From the NCBI GenBank assembly GCA_013426755.1, contig AP019861.1, positions 607,067-671,066 of the forward strand: DNA of 64,000 nucleotides. Direction: 5' to 3'. This DNA comes from Spirochaetota bacterium. Lineage in GTDB: Bacteria; Spirochaetota; UBA12135; COTS27. The notes under the pieces were generated by a model that was not told where the DNA came from, did not search any database, and saw only the letters and a program-made list of their open reading frames with translations. Each line of letters opens with the position of its first letter. Position 1 is the stretch's first letter. The translations under genes and the position numbers were made by a program. This document shows, in pieces, positions 16,536 to 45,715 of this stretch.

Positions 16536-17576
16536 TTAGTGATGACGAAATTTATTCAATGAGAACATTAAATGGTCAATGTTATAACGAAGGCCTAATC
16601 GTTGGATGACGTATTCTAGTTCAGCGTGTTCGTTGGAGTTATAATTTTGTTTGAGATTGGCAATGGTTGTTTTTAGATGGAGTTCTTTTTGGGGGTCTAG
16701 GTTAGTTTTTTGGAGTTTGATGCCGGATTTTGCGTCGAAGTAATCTGCGTAATACAAGGTTTGAATGCGTTGATAGAGAGATTGCGAGGTTTCGTGTTTC
16801 AATGCGTCAATCTCTAATATTTTAGCGAGAGGGTCGCGGCGTTTGAGATGGACGTAGAGAGATTTAGTTTTGTGTGATTCGCCACTGTACGTTAAAATGC
16901 AAAGACGTGGGCGCATCGTTGTAAAAGTGGGCATAAATGCGGTTGTTTTTGTAATAACGGCGTAAGGCAAATTGGCTTGTTTTAGCATGGTGATAAGGTC
17001 TGTGAACATGGCGAAGTTTGTACTGTTTTCTTCATTGAAGACGAGGACGCCCTTTTCTTTGTAAGCGAGAGATAGGGGCAAGGTTGGATGGGCGGCAAGG
17101 TTTTTTTGTAGCAATGGTAAGTTATTTAGCGTAAGTTCTTCATGACTGGCGGCGTGAAGAATAACAGGTGTTTTTACGAGGAGGGCTGCTTCGGTTTCGG
17201 TTGGTTTTAAGACATTTTCTGCAAAGACTAGCTTGCGTTGATAGTCGTGTGGTACTAAGGTATTAAGGAAATCGACTTTTTTAAGCAGGTCTTCGGCTTT
17301 ACTTAGGGCGATAGTAAAATCAATTGGAAAAAACAAATGCGGCAATCGTCGTTTCAATAGCTTCTTTTCCTTAGCGGTTATAAAAACATAGAAACAATCA
17401 TGTTTTAAAAGGTTTGTGTCATTGAGATCGCTGCGTGACAGGTCTTTTTTAAATACAAGTTTATTATCAGCAATCGATGAAAACAGGGGCCCTTGCAATT
17501 TTGATATTGCAATAGGAATTTTACCCACACCTAGGGTGTCTAATAAGAGGTTGAGATCGGTACGAACAATTTTCAT
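16536..17576 (-). CDS. conserved-looking protein of unknown function downstream of prmC
   Basis: 346 aa, no signal peptide and no membrane helix. It is mixed alpha/beta in appearance, with a Lys/Leu-rich C-terminal helical part and a short basic end. The ATG lies one base after the prmC stop codon, so translation is very probably coupled. I recognise no motif and do not assign a function. Operon placement with a translation-related methyltransferase is the only hint. Codon choice and composition resemble the neighbours. Confidence 0.65.
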   Translation of the reverse strand: MKIVRTDLNLLLDTLGVGKIPIAISKLQGPLFSSIADNKLVFKKDLSRSDLNDTNLLKHDCFYVFITAKEKKLLKRRLPHLFFPIDFTIALSKAEDLLKKVDFLNTLVPHDYQRKLVFAENVLKPTETEAALLVKTPVILHAASHEELTLNNLPLLQKNLAAHPTLPLSLAYKEKGVLVFNEENSTNFAMFTDLITMLKQANLPYAVITKTTAFMPTFTTMRPRLCILTYSGESHKTKSLYVHLKRRDPLAKILEIDALKHETSQSLYQRIQTLYYADYFDAKSGIKLQKTNLDPQKELHLKTTIANLKQNYNSNEHAELEYVIQRLGLRYNIDHLMFSLNKFRHH

Positions 17577-17577
17577 A

Positions 17578-18582
17578 TTAAGGGCACTGCCCGCTGATAA
17601 AGCGATGTTTACTGAACATATCTTTATGGAAGGTCAAATTCTGATAAGATTGAAATAGCTCGCTTAGTGGCTGGGTTTGGTTGTGTCCGCATTCTAGGTA
17701 GAAATAGCCTTGTCTGCTTAGGATCTGTGGTAGATGTTCTGCGAGTGCTCTGAGGAAATTAAGACCATCTGCACCGCTGTAAAGCGCTGCGGCTGGTTCA
17801 TAATGTTGGACTGTGGGGGCTAAATCAGGGTCATTCTCACCGATGTAGGGTGGATTGCTGACAATGATGTCGTACCGATCTAATACGGGGTTTGAATTTA
17901 TAAAAAAAAGTTTATTTAGTAGCGTTTTGATACGCTCTTTAAAAGGGGCATGGGTTTTATTACTGGCTTGTGTCTGCTTAGCTAAGGGGGCGAATGCTCT
18001 AAATTCTCTAAAAATATCGCAATGATAAAATTCAATGCGGTTGTTAGCAGTGTTAGGGAGTAGGCGCTTGGCATTAGTCTGTGCTGTGCGTAAGGCAAGC
18101 GTTGACGTGTCGATTGCTGTCACGTTCAAGGTCGGGAAATGCTTCTTCAATGTGATTGCAAGAACGCCTGTTCCCGTTCCGATGTCTAGTAAAGAGGGGT
18201 GGTGAGTGGATGTGCGGCTAGCTTTTTCAAGTTTTTTCAGTAATGACGGGAGAGTAGCGATGAGATGGCTGGCGAGTTCTTCGGTTTCGACGCGTGGCAG
18301 AAAAACGCCTCGTGGGGTGAGGAATTTTAATTTACAAAATTCGGTTGTTCCCAAGACATATCCTACGGGAACACCGCGGTTTAATGCGTGTAGGTAGCGG
18401 TCAATGCGCAAGCGCTGTGTTAAAGAGAATGACTTAGCGCGGTCTGTGAATAAGACTTTATGCGGGGGGAGTGTTAAGACTTCTGCGATCAAATTAAGGG
18501 CTAGCATGTGTCTAGTTTGCTTGGAATAGGTTTTAGGATGCAGTGTATGATAGATTTTATTGTAAATTTCAAGGGAAGTCAT
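17578..18582 (-). CDS. prmC: peptide chain release factor N5-glutamine methyltransferase PrmC (HemK)
   Basis: Methylates the Gln of the GGQ motif in RF1/RF2 using S-adenosylmethionine. An N-terminal helical release-factor-binding domain (about 1-75) includes GVPVGYVLGTTEF, followed by the Rossmann methyltransferase. SAM-binding motif LLDIGTGTGVLA is at 131-142, an acidic loop at Asp158, and the catalytic motif NPPYIGENDPDL at 243-254. Its 334 aa exceeds the usual 280. The excess is an insertion at about 193-232 (residues between the CDIFREF and DIIVSNPPY strands), in line with insertions in other genes here. The substrate gene prfB is at the far right of the window. Confidence 0.92.
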   Translation of the reverse strand: MTSLEIYNKIYHTLHPKTYSKQTRHMLALNLIAEVLTLPPHKVLFTDRAKSFSLTQRLRIDRYLHALNRGVPVGYVLGTTEFCKLKFLTPRGVFLPRVETEELASHLIATLPSLLKKLEKASRTSTHHPSLLDIGTGTGVLAITLKKHFPTLNVTAIDTSTLALRTAQTNAKRLLPNTANNRIEFYHCDIFREFRAFAPLAKQTQASNKTHAPFKERIKTLLNKLFFINSNPVLDRYDIIVSNPPYIGENDPDLAPTVQHYEPAAALYSGADGLNFLRALAEHLPQILSRQGYFYLECGHNQTQPLSELFQSYQNLTFHKDMFSKHRFISGQCP

Positions 18583-18750
18583 GGAATGAGCGCTGAGATT
18601 TTGTGGTAAACTGCTGGGTACTAGTTTGTTATATGAGAAGTCCTTGATTTATTTATCGTTAAACGTGAAGGTTTTTTTTATTTTATAAGGAGATTAAAGG
18701 ATTAAAGGATTGAAGGACTGCTTTTTGGGGTAGGAATTTCAATAATATAT

Positions 18751-18756
18751 TATAAT
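18751..18756 (+). promoter_or_regulatory. possible -10 box for pepA
   Basis: TATAAT at 18751-18756 in the 233-bp divergent gap between prmC and pepA, about 60 bp upstream of the pepA start. No convincing -35 hexamer at standard spacing, so only tentative. Confidence 0.3.
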
Positions 18757-18815
18757 CTATAAGTGTATGTGCGTATATGACGTATTAAAAATCTGTATTT
18801 AAAGGCTGCTTGATC

Positions 18816-20486
18816 ATGAAGATAATCTCACGTCCCCAATTTTCAGAAAATCCCGATCTTACGGTTATTTTTACCAATGCTATTAAAGAAGAGGCGTATG
18901 AAGATATAGCGTCTGCTCATAAAGGAAGTCGTGGTAAAAGTGGAGCGAGTTATCGCGCTAAAGGACAGCCATCCGCTGCTCGAACGTACTTTGATGAACA
19001 AGTGCATATTTATTCGAGCGATAGTTTTTTTTACAATGCAATTGTCAGCTATATAAAAAATAGATTTTTCTGTGTTACGGAGAATGCGACTTTTTCTTTG
19101 TACGAACAGGGCAAATTTCATGAACTTCGTTATGTTACGGTGCCGCTATACAGTCAAAGCGAGGGGAGGTCGTCATCACGTTCGATGTCTTCTCAGCAAG
19201 CTAATTTAGGAGAGAAGTCGGCTAAATATACATTAACGCCCTCCGAATTTATTGATAAAGTGCGACATTTGATGGCCAATCTCATCAGTAGAGAGCGGTC
19301 GGCTAGAAAATGGGAATTTGATCTCAGTGCGGTGTCTAATATCGTCAGTGCGTTTAATCTACATGAAAGTGATTTTATTGAGGCGCTGATAGAAGGACTT
19401 TCTTTGGGGCTGTATCAATTCTCCTACCAGACGGGGAAGAAACCAGAACTTGATCATACGGTTGTTCTGGTAGGAAGTTCGTTAGAGCGATCTGACCTTA
19501 CATATGTGATTAGACGTGGTGTGCACATTGCTGAGGCTATTAAGTTTGCGCGCACGCTTGCTAATGCTGCGCCCAATTATTTAACGATCAGTCGTTTTGT
19601 TAAAGAAGCGCACCACGTCGCTAAGGAAAATAAACTTAAATTTACAGAGATCAATTACCAACGGCTGCTTAAAGAAGGGTTTGGCGGGTTACTAGCGGTC
19701 AATAGCGGTTCAGCCGAGCGGGCGCGGTTACTTACGCTTGAGTACGCTCCTGCTAAAGCGACGCAGACAATTCTCCTCGTCGGCAAGGGTGTTCTCTTCG
19801 ATAGCGGTGGTTTATCTATCAAACCTTCTGCTGGGATGGCGGAGATGAAGATGGATATGTCGGGTGCTGCGGTTGTGCTTGCCGTTATGAAAGCCGTACG
19901 GCAATTGGCACTCAATGTACGTGTGATTGCGGCGCTTCCCCTTACAGATAATGTTATCAGTTCTAATGCGTTTCGTGTGGGTGATGTGCTTACGTTATAC
20001 AATGGCAAACGTGTTGAAGTTCTCAATACAGATGCTGAGGGCAGGCTTATTTTAGCCGATGCGCTCAGTTATGCGATAAAGAAGTACCGTCCTAATTATA
20101 CGATTGATTTTGCTACGCTTACGGGTGCTTGTATGGTGGCGTTAGGACAGCATTATGCGGGGCTGTGGTCTAATAGTCGTGATCTTGCTGAGGCACTGCT
20201 CCACGCTGGTGAAGAGACGAGCGAGTTACTGTGGCAGATGCCACTTCACCGTGCGTATTTGAATGATCTCAATTCACCGATAGCAGACCTTAAAAACATA
20301 GGGGGTTCTTACGGCGGTGCTAATACAGCGGCTAAATTCCTAGAACAGTTCGTTGCCAATGCCAATTGGGCGCATATCGATATGGCTGGCACGATGTCCT
20401 ATCAAACGAATGCTGGCTATAAAAAGAAAGGTGCTAGTGGGTTCGGTGTTCGCTTAGCGTTACGGTTCTTAACGGGGAAAGATTAA
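18816..20486 (+). CDS. pepA: leucyl aminopeptidase (M17 family)
   Basis: Cytosolic di-metal aminopeptidase that removes N-terminal residues in peptide turnover. The M17 catalytic half is unmistakable: VGKGVLFDSGGLSIKP with metal-ligand Lys324 and the following Asp, EMKMDMSGAA, and the family signature NTDAEGRLILADAL beginning at residue 404. The N-terminal half (1-230) is less conserved and contains a Ser/Gly-rich stretch. Its 556 aa is slightly longer than the usual 490-500. I start at the ATG (18816) rather than the in-frame TTG six bases upstream, because AAAGG at 18801-18805 is better spaced for the ATG. Confidence 0.93.
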   Translation: MKIISRPQFSENPDLTVIFTNAIKEEAYEDIASAHKGSRGKSGASYRAKGQPSAARTYFDEQVHIYSSDSFFYNAIVSYIKNRFFCVTENATFSLYEQGKFHELRYVTVPLYSQSEGRSSSRSMSSQQANLGEKSAKYTLTPSEFIDKVRHLMANLISRERSARKWEFDLSAVSNIVSAFNLHESDFIEALIEGLSLGLYQFSYQTGKKPELDHTVVLVGSSLERSDLTYVIRRGVHIAEAIKFARTLANAAPNYLTISRFVKEAHHVAKENKLKFTEINYQRLLKEGFGGLLAVNSGSAERARLLTLEYAPAKATQTILLVGKGVLFDSGGLSIKPSAGMAEMKMDMSGAAVVLAVMKAVRQLALNVRVIAALPLTDNVISSNAFRVGDVLTLYNGKRVEVLNTDAEGRLILADALSYAIKKYRPNYTIDFATLTGACMVALGQHYAGLWSNSRDLAEALLHAGEETSELLWQMPLHRAYLNDLNSPIADLKNIGGSYGGANTAAKFLEQFVANANWAHIDMAGTMSYQTNAGYKKKGASGFGVRLALRFLTGKD

Positions 20487-23515: not shown

Positions 23516-24310
23516 CTACTGTTTGAGTGTGATAGCGGTCTGCAACATACTGTCTGAGGTTTGGATTGATTTAGAATTCATTTCGTATGCGCGTTGGGCT
23601 GTGATCATATTAACCATTTCATCGACGACGCGGACGTTAGAGAGTTCTAAGAAGCCTTGGATAAGTTTAGGTTGTCCTTCCAGTGAAGGGGTGCCCTCGA
23701 TAGCATCACCTGAGGCTTCGGTAACGCGGTAGAGGTTATCGCCTAAGCTGAGAAGTCCTGCTGGGTTGATAAAGCGGTACGTATTGACCTGTCCGATGTC
23801 TTCGATTTCGCGTGTGATGAGGTCTTCACCAGTAACGCGTCCGAGCGTATCAATAGTAATGGTCTCAATACGAATATTGTCTGGAATGATGAGTTCTGGA
23901 TCGAGGCGGAGGCCATTACTGTTTAAGATTTGCCTATTGGAGTCAATTTTGAAACTTCCATCGCGTGTGTATCCTTCTGTTCCGTCAATCATGATGACAC
24001 GAAAGAAGCCGGGGCCTTCTAAGGCGAGGTCTAGGTTATTTCCTGTATTTTGGAGGGAGCCTTGTTCGAATAGGCGTTGGGTGGCGGCGGTACGAACGCC
24101 TAGTCCTACTTGAATACCTGTTGGCATGACGGTTTCTTCGGTGGCGGGTGTTCCTGCTGTTCTGAAGGTCTGGTAGAGTAGGTCTTCAAATTCGGCTCTA
24201 TTTTTCTTGAAGCCTGTTGTGTTGACGTTAGATAAATTGTGAGCAATGGTATCAATGTTAAATTGTTGGGCGTGCATTCCACTTGCCCCTGTCCATAATG
24301 AGCGTACCAT
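23516..24310 (-). CDS. flgG: flagellar distal rod protein FlgG
   Basis: Builds the distal rod of the flagellar basal body. The N-terminal rod motif SLWTGASGMHAQQFNIDTIA (residues 4-23) and HNLSNVNTTGFKK are present. The centre has GIQVGLGVRTAATQR, ALEGPGFFRV and YTRDGSFKID. The C-terminus has the coiled-coil motif SNVRVVDEMVNMITAQRAYE and ends in LQTAITLKQ. Its 264 aa is exactly family size. The N-terminal phrasing (MVRSLWT, NNTTGFKK-like, TPATEE) is close to spirochaete FlgG as I recall it, the best phylogenetic hint in the window. AGGA about 10 bases before the ATG is a fair ribosome binding site. Upstream lies the 3.5-kb repeat region. Confidence 0.97.
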   Translation of the reverse strand: MVRSLWTGASGMHAQQFNIDTIAHNLSNVNTTGFKKNRAEFEDLLYQTFRTAGTPATEETVMPTGIQVGLGVRTAATQRLFEQGSLQNTGNNLDLALEGPGFFRVIMIDGTEGYTRDGSFKIDSNRQILNSNGLRLDPELIIPDNIRIETITIDTLGRVTGEDLITREIEDIGQVNTYRFINPAGLLSLGDNLYRVTEASGDAIEGTPSLEGQPKLIQGFLELSNVRVVDEMVNMITAQRAYEMNSKSIQTSDSMLQTAITLKQ

Positions 24311-24480
24311 AAATAAGTCCTATATTAAGTGAGTTCTGTATTAAGTGAGTTCTGTATTAAATAAATGCACTATTAAACAAATGCCCTATTAAACAAACAA
24401 ATAAATGCACTATTAAACAAATGTACTATTAAACAAATGTACTATTAAATAAATATACTATTAATTAAAAGATGATATTT
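24311..24480. repeat. CTATTAAACAAATG-type short tandem repeats
   Basis: Upstream of flgG: TATTAAGTGAGTTCTG appears twice, then ACTATTAAACAAATG-like 14-18 bp units at least six times (24356-24470). The array lies where the flgG promoter would be expected. Confidence 0.75.
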
Positions 24481-24819: not shown

Positions 24820-26212
24820 AAGTGGATTGCAAGTCAATGTTTTACCGAGTGAGTGCATAGCAGATACATATTTTATGGAATTTTTTTTTATAGATTGGAA
24901 GTGAAATGGAAGAGGATTACGGGTCAATTTTTAGAGGGAATGAAATTTTTTGTGCAGTAATTTAAATTTTTGAATTGATAAACTGAGTTGTTGCTAGCGA
25001 GCGGCAAGTCAATTTTTTAGAGGGAATGAAATTTTTAGGGCAGTAATTTAAATTTTTGAATTGATAAACTGAGTTATCGCTAGTGAGCGGCAAGTCAATG
25101 ATTTACCGAGTGAGTGCATAGCAGATACATTTTTTATGGAATTTTTTTTTATAGATTGGAAGCGAAATGGAAGAGGACTGCAGGTCAATGTTTTAGAGGA
25201 AATGAAATTTTCTGGGCAATGCATTTAAATTTTTGAATTGATAAACTCAGTTATCGCTAGCGAGCGGCAAGTCAATGTTTTACCGAGTGAGTGCATAGCA
25301 GATACATTTTCTATGGAATTTTTTTTTATAGATTGGAAGTGAAATGGAAGAGGACTGCAGGTCAATGTTTTAGAGGGAATAAAATTTTTTGGGCGATAAA
25401 TTTAAATTTTTGAATTGATAAACTGAGTTGTTGCTAGCGAGCGGCAGGTCAATGTTTTACTGGGTGAATGCATAGCAGATACATTTTTTATGGAATTTTT
25501 TTTTATAGATTGGAAGTGAAATGGAAGAGGACTGCAGGTCAATGTTTTAGAGGGAATGAAATTTTTTTGGCAATGCATTTAAATTTTTGAATTGATAAAC
25601 TGAGTTGTTGCTAGCGAGCGGCAAGTCAATTTTTTAGAGGGAATAAAATTTTTAGGCAATGTATTTAAATTTTTGGATTGATAAACTGAGTTGTTGCTAG
25701 CGAGCGGCAGGTCAATGTTTTACCGAGTGAGTGCATAGCAGATACATATTTTATGGAATTTTTTTTTATAGATTGGAAGTGAAATGGAAGAGGACTGCAG
25801 GTCAATGTTTTAGAGGGAATGAAATTTTTTAGGCAATGCATTTAAATTTTTGAATTGATAAACTGAGTTATCGCTAGCGAGCGGCAAGTCAATGTTTTAC
25901 CGAGTGAGTGCATAGCAGATACATTTTTTATGGAATTTTTTTTTATAGATTGGAAGTGAAATGGAAGAGGACTGCAGGTCAATTTTTTAGAGGGAATAAA
26001 ATTTTTTGGGCAGTAAATTTAAATTTTTGAATTGATAAACTGAGTTGTTGCTAGCGAGCGGCAAGTCAATGTTTTACCGAGTGAGTGCATAGCAGATACA
26101 TTTTTTATGGAATTTTTTTTTATAGATTGGAAGTGAAATGGAAGAGGACTGCAGGTCAATATTTTAGAGGGAATAAAATTTTTAGGCAATGCATTTAAAT
26201 TTTTGGGTTAAT
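24820..26212. repeat. large two-module satellite array (177-bp period)
   Basis: Two modules alternate. Module A (90 bp) begins GTTTTACCGAGTGAGTGCAT and ends GACTGCAGGTCAAT. Module B (87 bp) begins GTTTTAGAGGGAATGAAATT and ends GAGCGGCAAGTCAAT. Module A occurs seven times, with its GCATAGCAGATACA core near 24855, 25117, 25293, 25470, 25733, 25910 and 26087. Spacing is 177 bp except for two gaps of about 263 bp where an extra B module is inserted. The copies are highly similar. No reading frame runs through them and no unique spacers occur. Confidence 0.95.
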
Positions 26213-26600: not shown

Positions 26601-26639
26601 GAGTCCTGGTTGGTTAATTGATTCAATGCATACTTCGGT

Positions 26640-27266
26640 TAGTGAATGTTATGAATATCAATTCTCATTGCTTAGTTAATTCAATATATACAATGCGTAT
26701 TTGAGTGATTGAATAAATATGTGAATATATGTTGGTTGGTTAATTAATGCAATGGATACTTCGGTTAGTGAATGTTATGAATATCAATTCTCGTTGGTTA
26801 ATTAGTTCAATGTGTGACTCGATGAGTGAGTATTAATTCTTGTTTGAATTCTTGTTTGTTAATGCAATGAATACTTCGGTTAGTGAATATTGATTCTCGT
26901 TGGTTAGCAAAGTGTATCTCAATAAATGAATATCAATTCTCGTTTGTTGGCAAAGTATATTTTAATGAGTGAATATTAATTCTGGTGAGTCAATTAATGC
27001 AATGCATACTTCGGTTAGTGAATGTTATGAATATCAATTCTCGTTGGTTAATTAGTTTAATGTGTGACTCGATGAGTGAGTATTCAATGTGTGACTCGAT
27101 GAGTGAGTATTAATTCTTGTTTGAATTCTTGTTTGTTAATGCAATGGATACTTCGGTTAGTGAATATTGATTCTCGTTGGTTAGCAAAGTGTATCTCAAT
27201 AAATGAATATCAATTCTCGTTTGTTAGCAAAGTATATCTTAATGAGTGAATATTAATTCTGGTGAG
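26640..27266. repeat. about 250-bp direct repeats built of 26-40 bp words
   Basis: Recurring words are ATACTTCGGTTAGTGAAT, AATATCAATTCTCGTTGG and GTGTGACTCGATGAGTGAG. Two long near-identical units run from about 26745 to 26998 and about 26999 to 27266. The second contains an extra internal duplication of the 26-bp GTGTGACTCGATGAGTGAGT block. A partial earlier unit starts near 26625. Confidence 0.85.
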
Positions 27267-27410: not shown

Positions 27411-27419
27411 ATAATTTTA

Positions 27420-27715
27420 GAAAATGATTGATGAGTGAAGCGTAGGTTAATGGGACCTGAGAATGCTTGAACGAATGGATGGTTTTTTAGAAAATGATTG
27501 ATAAGTGAAGCGTAGGTTAATGGGACCTGAGAATGCTTGAACGAATGGATGGTTTTTTAGAAAATGATTGATGAGTGAAGCGTAGGTTAATGGGACCTGA
27601 GAATGCTTGAACGAATTAATGGTTTTTTAGAAAATGATTGATGAGTGAAGCGTAGGTTAATGGGACCTAAGAATGCTTGAACGAATTAATGGTTTTTTAG
27701 AAAATAATCAATGAA
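27420..27715. repeat. 70-bp minisatellite
   Basis: Units start at 27420, 27490, 27560 and 27630 with GAAAATGATTGATGAGTGAA, plus a degenerate start at 27700. Copies differ by one to three bases. The array ends about 110 bp before the adenine methyltransferase start codon, in its promoter region. Confidence 0.92.
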
Positions 27716-27823
27716 GTGAAAAGTTGCTTAAGTAAGGCATTCATTATATTTTGAAGTGGCGTAAAAAAAATAAGGGCAATTTGTTTTCATAAAAACTTTT
27801 GCGGATTTTCCGTAAAAGAGGTT

Positions 27824-30800
27824 ATGAAAGCGACCTTAAAAACGCGGACTTCTAGGCAAGCAGGCACGAAATCAGCACGGCGTACGCGTGGTGATGAATG
27901 TAGTCCGTTAGATGTAAGAAATAGAACGGCGAGTGCTGGTATTGCGACTATTACTGCTGGGCTGGACGTTGGTTTAGCTGGCATTGATGAAGTCAGGTGT
28001 GATCTGGCTGCGACTGCGAATGGCGGCAAGAATGGGATCAATTTTGATTCGACGCCTGCTACCAGTAGGGACGAGTCCGACCCAATCGCTACAACCCCTA
28101 AAAACAAACCTGATCCAATCGCTACTACCCGTAGGAGCAAGCCTGATCCAATTACCATCACCCATAGAAGCAATTCTGATTCGATTGCTGCTATTCACCA
28201 GCAATCGCAACAGCAATCACAACATCAACAGCAATCGCAACATCAATATCAATTTCAACACAAACAGCAATCTCAACATAATCATCAATCGCAATATCAA
28301 AATCAATCTCAACATAATCATCAACCGCAATATCAAAATCAATCGCAACATAATCATCAATCGCAACACCAACAGCAATCGCAACATCAATGTAAAGATA
28401 AACAGCAATCTCAGTATCAATATGATAAGGCTTATGTTGAGAAGAATCTTATCGCCTATATAGGCAATAAAAGAAGATTGTTGCCGCTTATCGTGAAAGC
28501 ATTGGAGGAGGTGCGATGTATAGGAGAAAATGGGGGAGCAAAATTGGTGCGTAGTGGTGTATTTATTGATTATTTTAGTGGTACGGGAGTTGTGGCGCGG
28601 CTTGCTAAATCATTGGGATTTAGGGTGATTGCTAATGATTGGGAGCCGTATGCGCACGTACTTGCACGTGGGTTTTTGGAAACGTCATCTGAAACATTGG
28701 CGGCTTTTGCTACCGAAGGTGGTATTAAAAAAGTCTTAAATAAACTCAATAAGCTACGCCGTTACAATAAAAAACAAAGTTACATTGCAAAATACTATTG
28801 TCCGCGTAATACAAAGAAAGCAGACCCCCATTTGGAACGGCTATTTTATACCCGTGAAAATGGAATTCTCATCGATAATATTCGCTCCGCTATCGATGCC
28901 GCTTATCCAGAGACAGATCATAGCAGTCGCATGACACAACAAAAACGACAATTATTGCTCGCGTTACTACTAGTCCAAGCATCGAAACGATCGAATACGT
29001 CAGGAATTTTTAAAGCCTATCATCACGGGTTTGGTGGGCGCAATCAGGACGCCCTAAGTCGCATTTTGACAACAATTGCCCTAGAAGTTCCCGTGCTCAC
29101 AGAAAAAGCAACGCCCGTGCACGTCTTCAAAAGTAACGCCCTGCGGCTAGCACGTAAACTCAGTCGGACAAAACTTCAAGCAGAAGTCGTGTACTTAGAC
29201 CCGCCGTACAACCAACACCAATACGGGTCCAATTATCACCTGCTCAATACAATTGCCTTAGGCGACCAGCCTACCATAGACCCAAAATTCTGGCACAATG
29301 GTAAAAAAATCCGTAAAGCCGCTATTCGTGAAGATTGGACGCAGACACGCTCCTCATTTTGTTACCGTAAAAGTGCCCTGCAGGAATTCACAAACCTAAC
29401 CCAGCAAATCAAAGCTAAATACATCTTAGTCAGCTATTCTACAGAAGGTATTATTGATTTTAACGATATGCTCGAGGTGTTAGCTGCGAAGGGCAAGGTC
29501 TCGGTTGTCACGCAAAATTACGTCCGGTTTAGAGGCGGCAGACAAACCAATGTGACTAAAAAACTCAACGTGGAGTTTGTATTGATTGTGGAAACGGGAG
29601 CACAGACAACCCCAGCAGACATTGCGCACGTTAAAATGAAGGTAGGGCACGCTGATTTTATCAATTGTTTCAATGATTTCTTTCCCATTCACCAGCGCTC
29701 TGATCGCTATAAGGTGATCGCCCATAGGTTTGGCTACGAATTACTTTTTATTGAAGAACGCAAACGGCTATTTCTAGATAAAAAACTTAGGCTCTGTCGT
29801 GAGAAAGATTTTCCGCTTCCTACTCGTCGTGAGAAGGAATTTACCTCTTCACCCCAACGCCAGAAAAGATCTACTTCTCCTACTACTCAGCATCAAAAAG
29901 AATTTCCGCTTCCTACTCGTCGTGAGAAAGAATTTACTTCTTCACCCCATCACCAGAAAAGTTTCTCTGCTTCACCTCAGCATCAGAAAAGTTCTGCTCC
30001 TACTACTCAGCATCAAAAAGAATGGATTGCTATCCATTCTACGTGTTCTGCAGAAAATATTTCTCCCAGCAAAACAATGATGAGTGCCTCTCCTGATAAA
30101 ACAATTATTGATGAGCAGTCACTTAGAAATGGAGTTTTAGATCATAAAGACCTTCCCGCTTCTATTGTCAGTACGATCTTACAAGTGATGCCTAAGACAA
30201 ACGAAGAGCGCATTGCTGGTATTGCTTGTCTATTGGAGCAAAATTACGTGATCGATAAACCGTATTTTCTGGGCGAATTGCTCCGTCTATACAGGAAATT
30301 GCTAGGCGACACGAACCATCGAACAGCCCTTATTCGATCACGTCATCGAATCCAGAGAGCATTGCAGTCTATTCTAAAATCTGAAACTTCCGTCCTGCAA
30401 TCCAATCAACCCGTCTCGAAACCTGGACATTCCGTCCTAAAATCTAAGGAGTCTACTTTAAAATATAAGCAATCTATTCTAAAATCTGGACAGTCTATTT
30501 CAAAGTCTAAGAAAGCTATTCTAAAATCTAAGGAGTCTATTTCAAAATCTAAGGAAGCTATCCTAAAATCTTCTGGACAATCCGTCCTAAAATCTAAGCA
30601 GTCTGTCTCGAAGTCTGGACAGTCTATTTTAAAATTTAAGCAGCCCGTTCTAAAATCTTCTGGGCAATCCGTTCTAAAATCTAAGCAGTCTGTCTCGAAG
30701 TCTGGACAGTCTATTTCAAAATCTAAGGAAGCTATTCTAAAATATTCTAGACAGTCTATTTTGAAATCTGCAGAAAAAGAGATATTAACAATCAAAAATA

Positions 30801-30949
30801 GAGACGTCCTCGCTTCAATAGACCTGGCTCAAAAATACGCACAATCTATATCAGCCATTCAGCAATCAAGCCCCAATTCTATTTCTATGCACCAAAAGAC
30901 ACATGAAAAAATAAGTGAATTGTCGCTTATCCTAGCAAAGTCAGCTTAG
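27824..30949 (+). CDS. orphan adenine-specific DNA methyltransferase (D12/COG3392-like) with giant repeat tails
   Basis: Predicted N6-adenine methyltransferase acting on DNA. The catalytic core is at about 200-650: YIGNKRRLLPLI, SAM-binding FIDYFSGTGVV (about 247-257), ANDWEPY, and catalytic motif IV YLDPPYNQHQYGSNYHLL with Asp459. The core is flanked by repeats. A Gln/His/Ser-rich head (about 125-198) includes 36-bp units coding QSQHNHQSQYQN. A middle tract (about 660-745) repeats RREKEFTSSP and TTQHQKE. The tail (about 855-985) consists of heptads like SVLKSKQ (21-bp units). A predicted helical domain lies at about 780-850. No restriction endonuclease is adjacent, so it is an orphan enzyme, perhaps regulatory. 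At 1041 aa it is about three times family size. The true start could be downstream of the Gln tract. Confidence 0.8.
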   Translation: MKATLKTRTSRQAGTKSARRTRGDECSPLDVRNRTASAGIATITAGLDVGLAGIDEVRCDLAATANGGKNGINFDSTPATSRDESDPIATTPKNKPDPIATTRRSKPDPITITHRSNSDSIAAIHQQSQQQSQHQQQSQHQYQFQHKQQSQHNHQSQYQNQSQHNHQPQYQNQSQHNHQSQHQQQSQHQCKDKQQSQYQYDKAYVEKNLIAYIGNKRRLLPLIVKALEEVRCIGENGGAKLVRSGVFIDYFSGTGVVARLAKSLGFRVIANDWEPYAHVLARGFLETSSETLAAFATEGGIKKVLNKLNKLRRYNKKQSYIAKYYCPRNTKKADPHLERLFYTRENGILIDNIRSAIDAAYPETDHSSRMTQQKRQLLLALLLVQASKRSNTSGIFKAYHHGFGGRNQDALSRILTTIALEVPVLTEKATPVHVFKSNALRLARKLSRTKLQAEVVYLDPPYNQHQYGSNYHLLNTIALGDQPTIDPKFWHNGKKIRKAAIREDWTQTRSSFCYRKSALQEFTNLTQQIKAKYILVSYSTEGIIDFNDMLEVLAAKGKVSVVTQNYVRFRGGRQTNVTKKLNVEFVLIVETGAQTTPADIAHVKMKVGHADFINCFNDFFPIHQRSDRYKVIAHRFGYELLFIEERKRLFLDKKLRLCREKDFPLPTRREKEFTSSPQRQKRSTSPTTQHQKEFPLPTRREKEFTSSPHHQKSFSASPQHQKSSAPTTQHQKEWIAIHSTCSAENISPSKTMMSASPDKTIIDEQSLRNGVLDHKDLPASIVSTILQVMPKTNEERIAGIACLLEQNYVIDKPYFLGELLRLYRKLLGDTNHRTALIRSRHRIQRALQSILKSETSVLQSNQPVSKPGHSVLKSKESTLKYKQSILKSGQSISKSKKAILKSKESISKSKEAILKSSGQSVLKSKQSVSKSGQSILKFKQPVLKSSGQSVLKSKQSVSKSGQSISKSKEAILKYSRQSILKSAEKEILTIKNRDVLASIDLAQKYAQSISAIQQSSPNSISMHQKTHEKISELSLILAKSA

Positions 30950-30954
30950 AAATG

Positions 30955-31440
30955 ACATTCAGAAACTAGTTTTAGAAATTAGCCTCAGAAACCAGTCTCA
31001 GAAATTAGCTAGCCTTAGAAATTGGGCTCAGAAATGAGTTTTAGAAATTGGCATTAGAAATTAATTTTAGCAACTAGTTTTAGAAGCTAGCATTAGAAAT
31101 TAGTTTTAGCAACTAGTTTTAGAAGTTAGCCTTAGAAATTGGACTCAGCAACTAGTTTTAGAAATTGGCATTAGAAATTAGTTTTAGCAACTAGTTTTAG
31201 AAGCTAGTCTTAGAAATTAGACTTAGTAACTAGTTTTAGAACCTAGCCTTAGAAATTGGGATCAGAAATGAGTTTTAGAACCTAGCATTAGAAATTAATT
31301 TTAGTAACTAGTTTTAGAAGCTAGCCTTAGAAATTGGACTTAGCAACTAGTTTTAGAACCTAGCCTTAGAAATTGGACTTAGCAACTAGTTTTAGAAGCT
31401 AGCCTTAGAAATTGGGATCAGAAATGAGTTTTAGAAATTA
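30955..31440. repeat. 39-bp minisatellite after the methyltransferase gene
   Basis: Degenerate array of TTAGAAATTGG / AGTTTTAGAAGCTAGCC words, clearest period 39 bp (for example 31305-31425). It begins directly after the stop codon. No gene is seen in 30950-31751. The last part (31440-31545) is AT-rich with a TATAAT near 31507. Confidence 0.8.
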
Positions 31441-31619
31441 GATTTTTCCCCATTTCAAACTTTCTATGATTTCAAATTTTCTTATAAGATAATACATCTT
31501 TTTATAGTATAATTGGTAATAAAATACTGTACGATTAGATTATTATCACATGCAATTATTATCACATGCTTTTTGTCAATTAAACTCACCGATGCAAATT
31601 GCAGACATCATTGTAAAGA

Positions 31620-45349: not shown

Positions 45350-45715
45350 GATAGAATTTTTCAATTGAATTTATTAGCGTCAATAGAATTTTTCTGTGTG
45401 TTTTAGTGGTGTGAAATAAATTTTTCAATTGAATTTATTAGCGTTAATAGAATTTTTCTGTGTGTTTTGGTGGTATGAAATAAATTTTTCAATTGAATTT
45501 ATTAGCGTCAATAGAATTTTTCTGTGTGTTTTGGTGGTATGAAATAAATTTTTCAATTGAATTTATTAGCGTCAATAGAATTTTTCTGTGTGTTTTGGTG
45601 GTGTGAAATAAATTTTTCAATTGAATTTATTAGCGTCAATAGAATTTTTCTGTGTGTTTTGGTGGTGTGAAATAAATTTTTCAATTGAATTTATTAGCGT
45701 TAATATAATTTTTCA
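45350..45715. repeat. 64-bp minisatellite between Sel1 paralogues 1 and 2
   Basis: GAAATAAATTTTTCAATTGA starts at 45413, 45477, 45541, 45605 and 45669, exactly 64 bp apart, with partial units at both ends. Copies differ at only a few positions. The AT-rich remainder (45716-46027) shows no further structure. Confidence 0.95.

Follow-up and report, generated by a model that had tools for sequence, protein, structure and literature searches.

A compound two-module minisatellite in a spirochaete chromosome rich in tandem repeats

The window, the whole stretch of DNA analysed here, comprises 64,000 nucleotides (positions 607067-671066) of a 2,684,921-bp single-contig spirochaete genome. Within it, the divergent genes encoding the flagellar basal-body rod protein FlgG and a D12-class N6-adenine DNA methyltransferase are separated by a non-coding gap of 3.5 kb, in which a tandem array of two modules, A and B, is located where the earlier note had placed it (Table 1). 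Four further repeat tracts lie in the same gap. The nearest relatives of FlgG are proteins of spirochaete MAGs, which places the host in the Spirochaetota. TRF also detected repeats inside the methyltransferase gene (28208-28390 and 30438-30769), and the N- and C-terminal tracts of the protein are repeat-derived. The protein has a long Q/H/S-rich N-terminal region and SKSGQSILK-type C-terminal repeats, and these terminal repeats apparently expanded through in-frame tandem duplication. The window as a whole yields 108 TRF rows, including a 64-bp unit repeated 5.6 times at 45355-45714 (97% match) and a 39/117-bp unit with 12.2/3.5 copies at 30961-31441 (80-88% match).

Table 1. Coordinates, in window positions, of the A/B array, its modules and its surroundings.
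Feature	Position	Strand	Basis or remark
flgG, flagellar basal-body rod protein, left flank	23516..24310	-	Pfam Flg_bbr_C 2.1e-22; 62-64% identity to spirochaete MAG proteins (closest)
Other repeat tracts in the flgG-methyltransferase gap	24323-24469, 26609-26812, 26884-27260, 27415-27720		TRF
First shared junction of about 16 bp, GCARGTCAATGTTTTA; left array boundary	24829..24844	no strand	
Two-module tandem array	24833..26205	no strand	GTCAAT split; single locus in genome
Module starts, first half	A1 24833, B1 24923, B2 25008, A2 25094, B3 25184, A3 25271, B4 25361, A4 25448		GTCAAT split
Module starts, second half	B5 25538, B6 25625, A5 25711, B7 25801, A6 25888, B8 25978, A7 26065, B9' 26155		GTCAAT split
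First B-B doublet (B1 85 bp, B2 86 bp)	24923..25093	no strand	GTCAAT split
Second B-B doublet (B5 87 bp, B6 86 bp)	25538..25710	no strand	GTCAAT split
Last B module, B9', truncated; right array boundary	26155..26205	no strand	Similarity ends at about 26205, the TRF end
Unrelated, more degenerate arrays of 58-bp and 43-bp units, same gap	26609..27260	no strand	TRF
70-bp array, 4.4 copies, 96% matches, same gap	27415..27720	no strand	TRF
D12-class N6-adenine DNA methyltransferase, right flank	27824..30949	+	Pfam MethyltransfD12 3.3e-22, residues 212-485

The array is real. Splitting at GTCAAT, the junction that the note had described as common to A and B, yields 16 modules, seven A and nine B, in the order A B B A B A B A B B A B A B A B'. 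The array scores up to 1650 in TRF, far beyond chance, and the rows with a 177-bp period (A plus B) show 92-94% matches and 0% indels. With 177-bp units repeated head to tail and an internally regular structure, it falls within the definition of a prokaryotic satellite or minisatellite (at least four head-to-tail units of 10-200 nt). The alternation of a 90-base A with an 87-base B, as originally reported, holds for the order and for A, since all seven copies are 90 bp, but only five of the eight full B copies have 87 bp (in order 85, 86, 87, 87, 87, 86, 87 and 87 bp, followed by the truncated B9'). Regularity is broken solely at the two places where an extra B had been noticed, the doublets B1-B2 and B5-B6, and three of the four copies in these doublets (B1, B2 and B6) are shortened to 85-86 bp. 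Similarly, GTTTTA had been said to follow each GTCAAT; it does so in 10 of 16 modules, but the remaining six carry TTTTTA (three), a T run shorter by 1 bp, GATTTA or ATTTTA (one each). The copies had also been called highly alike, which is true of A (0-7 differences per 90) but less so of B (3-12 differences per copy). Recent amplification or homogenisation is therefore only partly supported, as B copies lie up to about 13% apart.

The A and B consensus sequences both begin with GTCAATGTTTTA and end in GCAR, so that every junction is spanned by a direct repeat of about 16 bp. Although the alignment score of the whole modules was reached by only 4 of 2000 dinucleotide shuffles, 429 of 2000 shuffles reached the score once the first 12 bp were removed, and similarity between A and B past the junction was not significant. 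This agrees with the proposed architecture of two modules with a common junction. Because A and B are unrelated past the junction, exchange there would be the simplest account of the A-B-B order. The suggestion that modules recombine as units thus stands in part: the exchanges were not perfectly unit-wise, given that the doublet B copies are mostly 85-86 bp. A higher-order block of 617 bp (ABBABAB, twice) was suggested by the module order, and divergence at lag 7 (0.0615) was indeed the lowest of all lags, but monomers were not significantly closer at this period (permutation p = 0.23) and the variants lend the block no support. Neighbouring copies were no more alike than others (permutation p = 0.35). 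Variants are instead intermixed along the array, as is expected under repeated exchange or conversion. The flank upstream of the array showed no similarity to A or B above that of shuffles. A candidate degenerate copy downstream consisted of one short A/T-rich match to A (6/500 shuffles) and was not trusted.

No second A/B locus was found in the 2.68-Mb genome at E <= 1e-3, where a search for further modules had been proposed, and at E up to 1 both this genome and a genome of the same family gave merely very short matches. This bears on whether the array is what remains of a MITE-like mobile element or of a family of transposed satellites; Leptospira interrogans, also a spirochaete, carries such families of non-coding satellites (PMC6749651). 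Neither dispersed copies nor related arrays at several loci exist for A/B; terminal inverted repeats around the array are absent, with A/T-rich chance arms only; and the adjacent ORFs encode no transposase. In addition, the modules matched no phage or plasmid record, an A-specific 19-mer had no exact match in IMG/VR, and the single IMG/VR match found with a 16-mer of B is such as chance would produce. A mobile origin, which would have overturned the note's description, is mostly refuted already by the uniqueness of the array, and we give it very little credence.

The array might also represent coding repeats on the minus strand. The A+B unit of 177 bp is a multiple of three and corresponds to 59 codons, and the minus strand accordingly shows four near-identical ORFs of 56-58 aa that recur with a 59-codon period. 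However, a stop is present in each dimer, the frame is broken by those B modules that have only 85-86 bp, and third positions are not enriched for variable sites (codon positions 1, 2 and 3: 5, 3 and 2 in A; 7, 3 and 9 in B). Minus-strand coding was rejected on these grounds and is scarcely credible.

A more serious alternative is that the array is functional non-coding DNA, either an iteron-like or nucleoid-protein binding array, with a T9 tract and GTCAAT about every 88 bp, or a regulatory region of flgG and the methyltransferase gene. The regular spacing, the conservation of the T9 tract in all seven A modules and the location upstream of two divergent genes all speak for such a role. Nevertheless, the genome is full of unrelated arrays with diverse periods, so that being organised as an array does not by itself point to a function, and relatives have no conserved counterpart. 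Folds of the array as RNA or DNA, on either strand, were no better than those of shuffles (z 0.97, 0.93 and 0.29) and an Rfam search of the array returned no family, which led us to reject RNA structure as its role. No evidence of a junction-binding system or a mobile element was found. Overall, a functional array appears unlikely, while the lack of a detectable function is not proof of none. Separately, B carries a small hairpin with a T run directly after it, which is flagged as terminator-like in two copies and points into the gap between the divergent genes.

We then consider the array against its own genome, sampled as 20 spaced 20-kb stretches (L108-L127; 400 kb in all) and searched with TRF. 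Tandem repeats make up 9.2% of the sampled bases, with about 7.4 loci per 10 kb; the poorest stretch (20-40 kb) has 0.2% and the richest (410-430 kb) 22%. For six single-contig relatives within the phylum, also sampled as stretches, the share is 0-0.6%, and it is 0.31% in a genome of the same order (G002) and 0.18% in one of the same class (G003). The sole genome of the same family compared (G001) has 2.05%, in a fragmented assembly of the kind that may under-report long arrays. In 464 kb, four arrays exceed 1 kb in length, and the A/B array is one of them. Among 131 arrays with a period of at least 25 nt there are just 21 related pairs, those listed all within one 20-kb stretch, which indicates that arrays are born locally. 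The period histogram is broad, and clustering of the 52-nt Bacillus kind was not seen. About 79% of the array bases that fall cleanly in or out of ORFs of at least 150 aa lie outside. Therefore, although bacterial satellites are rare in general, as the note had stated (PMC6749651), tandem arrays cover about 9% of this genome; the array is ordinary for its own genome, and what is unusual is how heavily the genome is loaded with repeats, something that the note, confined to the window, could not have revealed. Stretches L125, L111, L122 and L120 hold further compound arrays whose modules are irregularly spaced. Those at L111:15295-17821 are large (periods 90/99/270, units such as ATCTGCGTTCATCTGTGTT), lie together within 2.5 kb, and are interrelated and apparently in inverted orientation. 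Arrays with periods 60/90/120 in at least two places (L117:7358-7766 and 17282-19323) resemble pentapeptide-repeat coding sequence, as judged from their units.

Reading frames provide a check on whether these arrays are genuine. Of the 81 arrays inside ORFs of at least 150 aa, 76 have a period that is a multiple of three, as against 83 of 262 outside, where the residues modulo three are even (83, 93 and 86); the contrast is partly mechanical, since calling an ORF needs an open frame and this biases the count. Preservation of frame inside ORFs nonetheless indicates that the arrays are mostly genuine. This is relevant to the A/B array because assemblers commonly mis-handle such regions, as described for Borgs (PMC9879509), and the array could be an assembly artefact, that is, a false array or one with a mis-resolved copy number. 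Substitutions separate all of its copies except A6 and A7, which argues against simple stutter, as does, within the bias just described, the genome-wide frame preservation. We thus regard an artefact as very improbable.

Loss of a repair function could account for the repeat load. RecA, MutS1, MutL, the ExoVII large subunit (xseA) and the 5'-exonuclease domain of PolA are all present, and loss of any of MutS, MutL, RecA, the ExoVII large subunit or PolA 5'-exonuclease was accordingly rejected as the cause. MutS1 (G000:C1:134500-139000; L170:701-3751, minus strand) has 1016 aa, scores above the NCBIfam cut-off, and carries a Pro/Gln-rich low-complexity insertion at about residues 465-540 with an intact Walker A motif. 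RecJ was not detected in the source genome or in the same-family and same-order genomes, while 15 of the 21 genomes searched pass the RecJ cut-off; the one DHH protein in the source genome is short, and its size points to the NrnA kind. MutS2 was likewise not detected in the source genome or in the same-family, same-order and same-class genomes, each of which has one MutS-type protein. In E. coli, tandem repeats are stabilised by single-strand exonucleases, RecJ among them. MutS2 suppresses recombination in H. pylori (PMC4739419). However, the same-order genome (93% complete) is repeat-poor although it gave no match to RecJ or MutS2, and those losses are therefore not sufficient. They may be permissive for the repeat load, and the link between the two is only suggestive.

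Taken together, we consider it likely that the A/B array is a non-coding compound minisatellite without a dedicated function, produced by a tandem-duplication process that operates across the genome of this spirochaete lineage. It probably arose in place, through a duplication between short direct repeats, and slippage or unequal recombination probably reshuffled it. Short direct repeats are a classic substrate for slippage or short-homology recombination. Since A and B are unrelated but framed by a repeat of about 16 bp, the ancestor probably consisted of two unrelated segments with short direct repeats. At such a site, three copies of GCARGTCAATGTTTTA would have framed two segments of about 75 bp, and the A+B unit of 177 bp would have been duplicated by strand slippage or unequal homologous exchange. 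On two later occasions an A may have been lost, or a B gained, through exchange between junctions, and conversion may have mixed variants among copies. Most speculatively, weakened suppression of repeat rearrangement, with RecJ and MutS2 undetected, might let many arrays arise and persist. A broader version, which we put forward tentatively and consider possible rather than probable, is that this spirochaete family has a chromosome-wide regime of tandem duplication caused by loss of RecJ and MutS2 with mismatch repair kept, that about 9% of the chromosome would lie in some two thousand (extrapolated) locally born arrays, and that the A/B array is a fossil of compound satellite formation by exchange at 16-bp junctions.

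The array is a good example of how a compound minisatellite may be born from two unrelated segments and a short repeat. The genome, for its part, offers a natural system in which to ask which repair functions keep compact bacterial genomes clear of tandem repeats, and it advises caution, as single arrays in such repeat-rich genomes should not be taken as functional elements.

Several known systems resemble the array in part. Alpha satellite higher-order repeats of eukaryotes likewise alternate distinct monomers in one array, whereas here the monomers are unrelated, the higher-order register is not significant and the scale is only kilobases. The intergenic satellites of Leptospira interrogans are also non-coding, long-unit arrays of a spirochaete, but they form transposed families (PMC6749651), while the A/B array has no sister copy and nearly all sampled arrays are unrelated. 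Closer are the prokaryotic satellites of Methanobrevibacter ruminantium and Clostridioides difficile (Subirana and Messeguer 2019, PMC6749651), which are similarly unique, local, non-coding, mutually unrelated and scattered, with units above 30 nt; here, in contrast, two unrelated modules alternate. The highest densities in that survey of 261 prokaryotes were 89/Mb, for Methanosarcina vacuolata, and, for a bacterial chromosome, 23/Mb (PMC6749651), compared with about 275/Mb here (TRF; at least four units of 10-200 nt), 175 at >=80% match and 82 at >=90%, the detection algorithms being different. Tandem repeats are thus much more abundant in this chromosome than in its relatives, and apparently more so than the published survey values. 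Borg tandem repeats also occur within and between genes across the replicon, with in-gene units divisible by three (PMC9879509), and the frame contrast reported above follows the same rule genome-wide. Yet Borg units are perfect and recent, unlike the A and B copies, and cover 0.62% of the genome on average (PMC9879509); exact arrays (at least three identical units, at least 50 nt) number 3.0 per 100 kb here as against a Borg average of 46 per 829 kb (PMC9879509), and the repeats of this bacterial chromosome are mostly imperfect and occupy about 9% of it.
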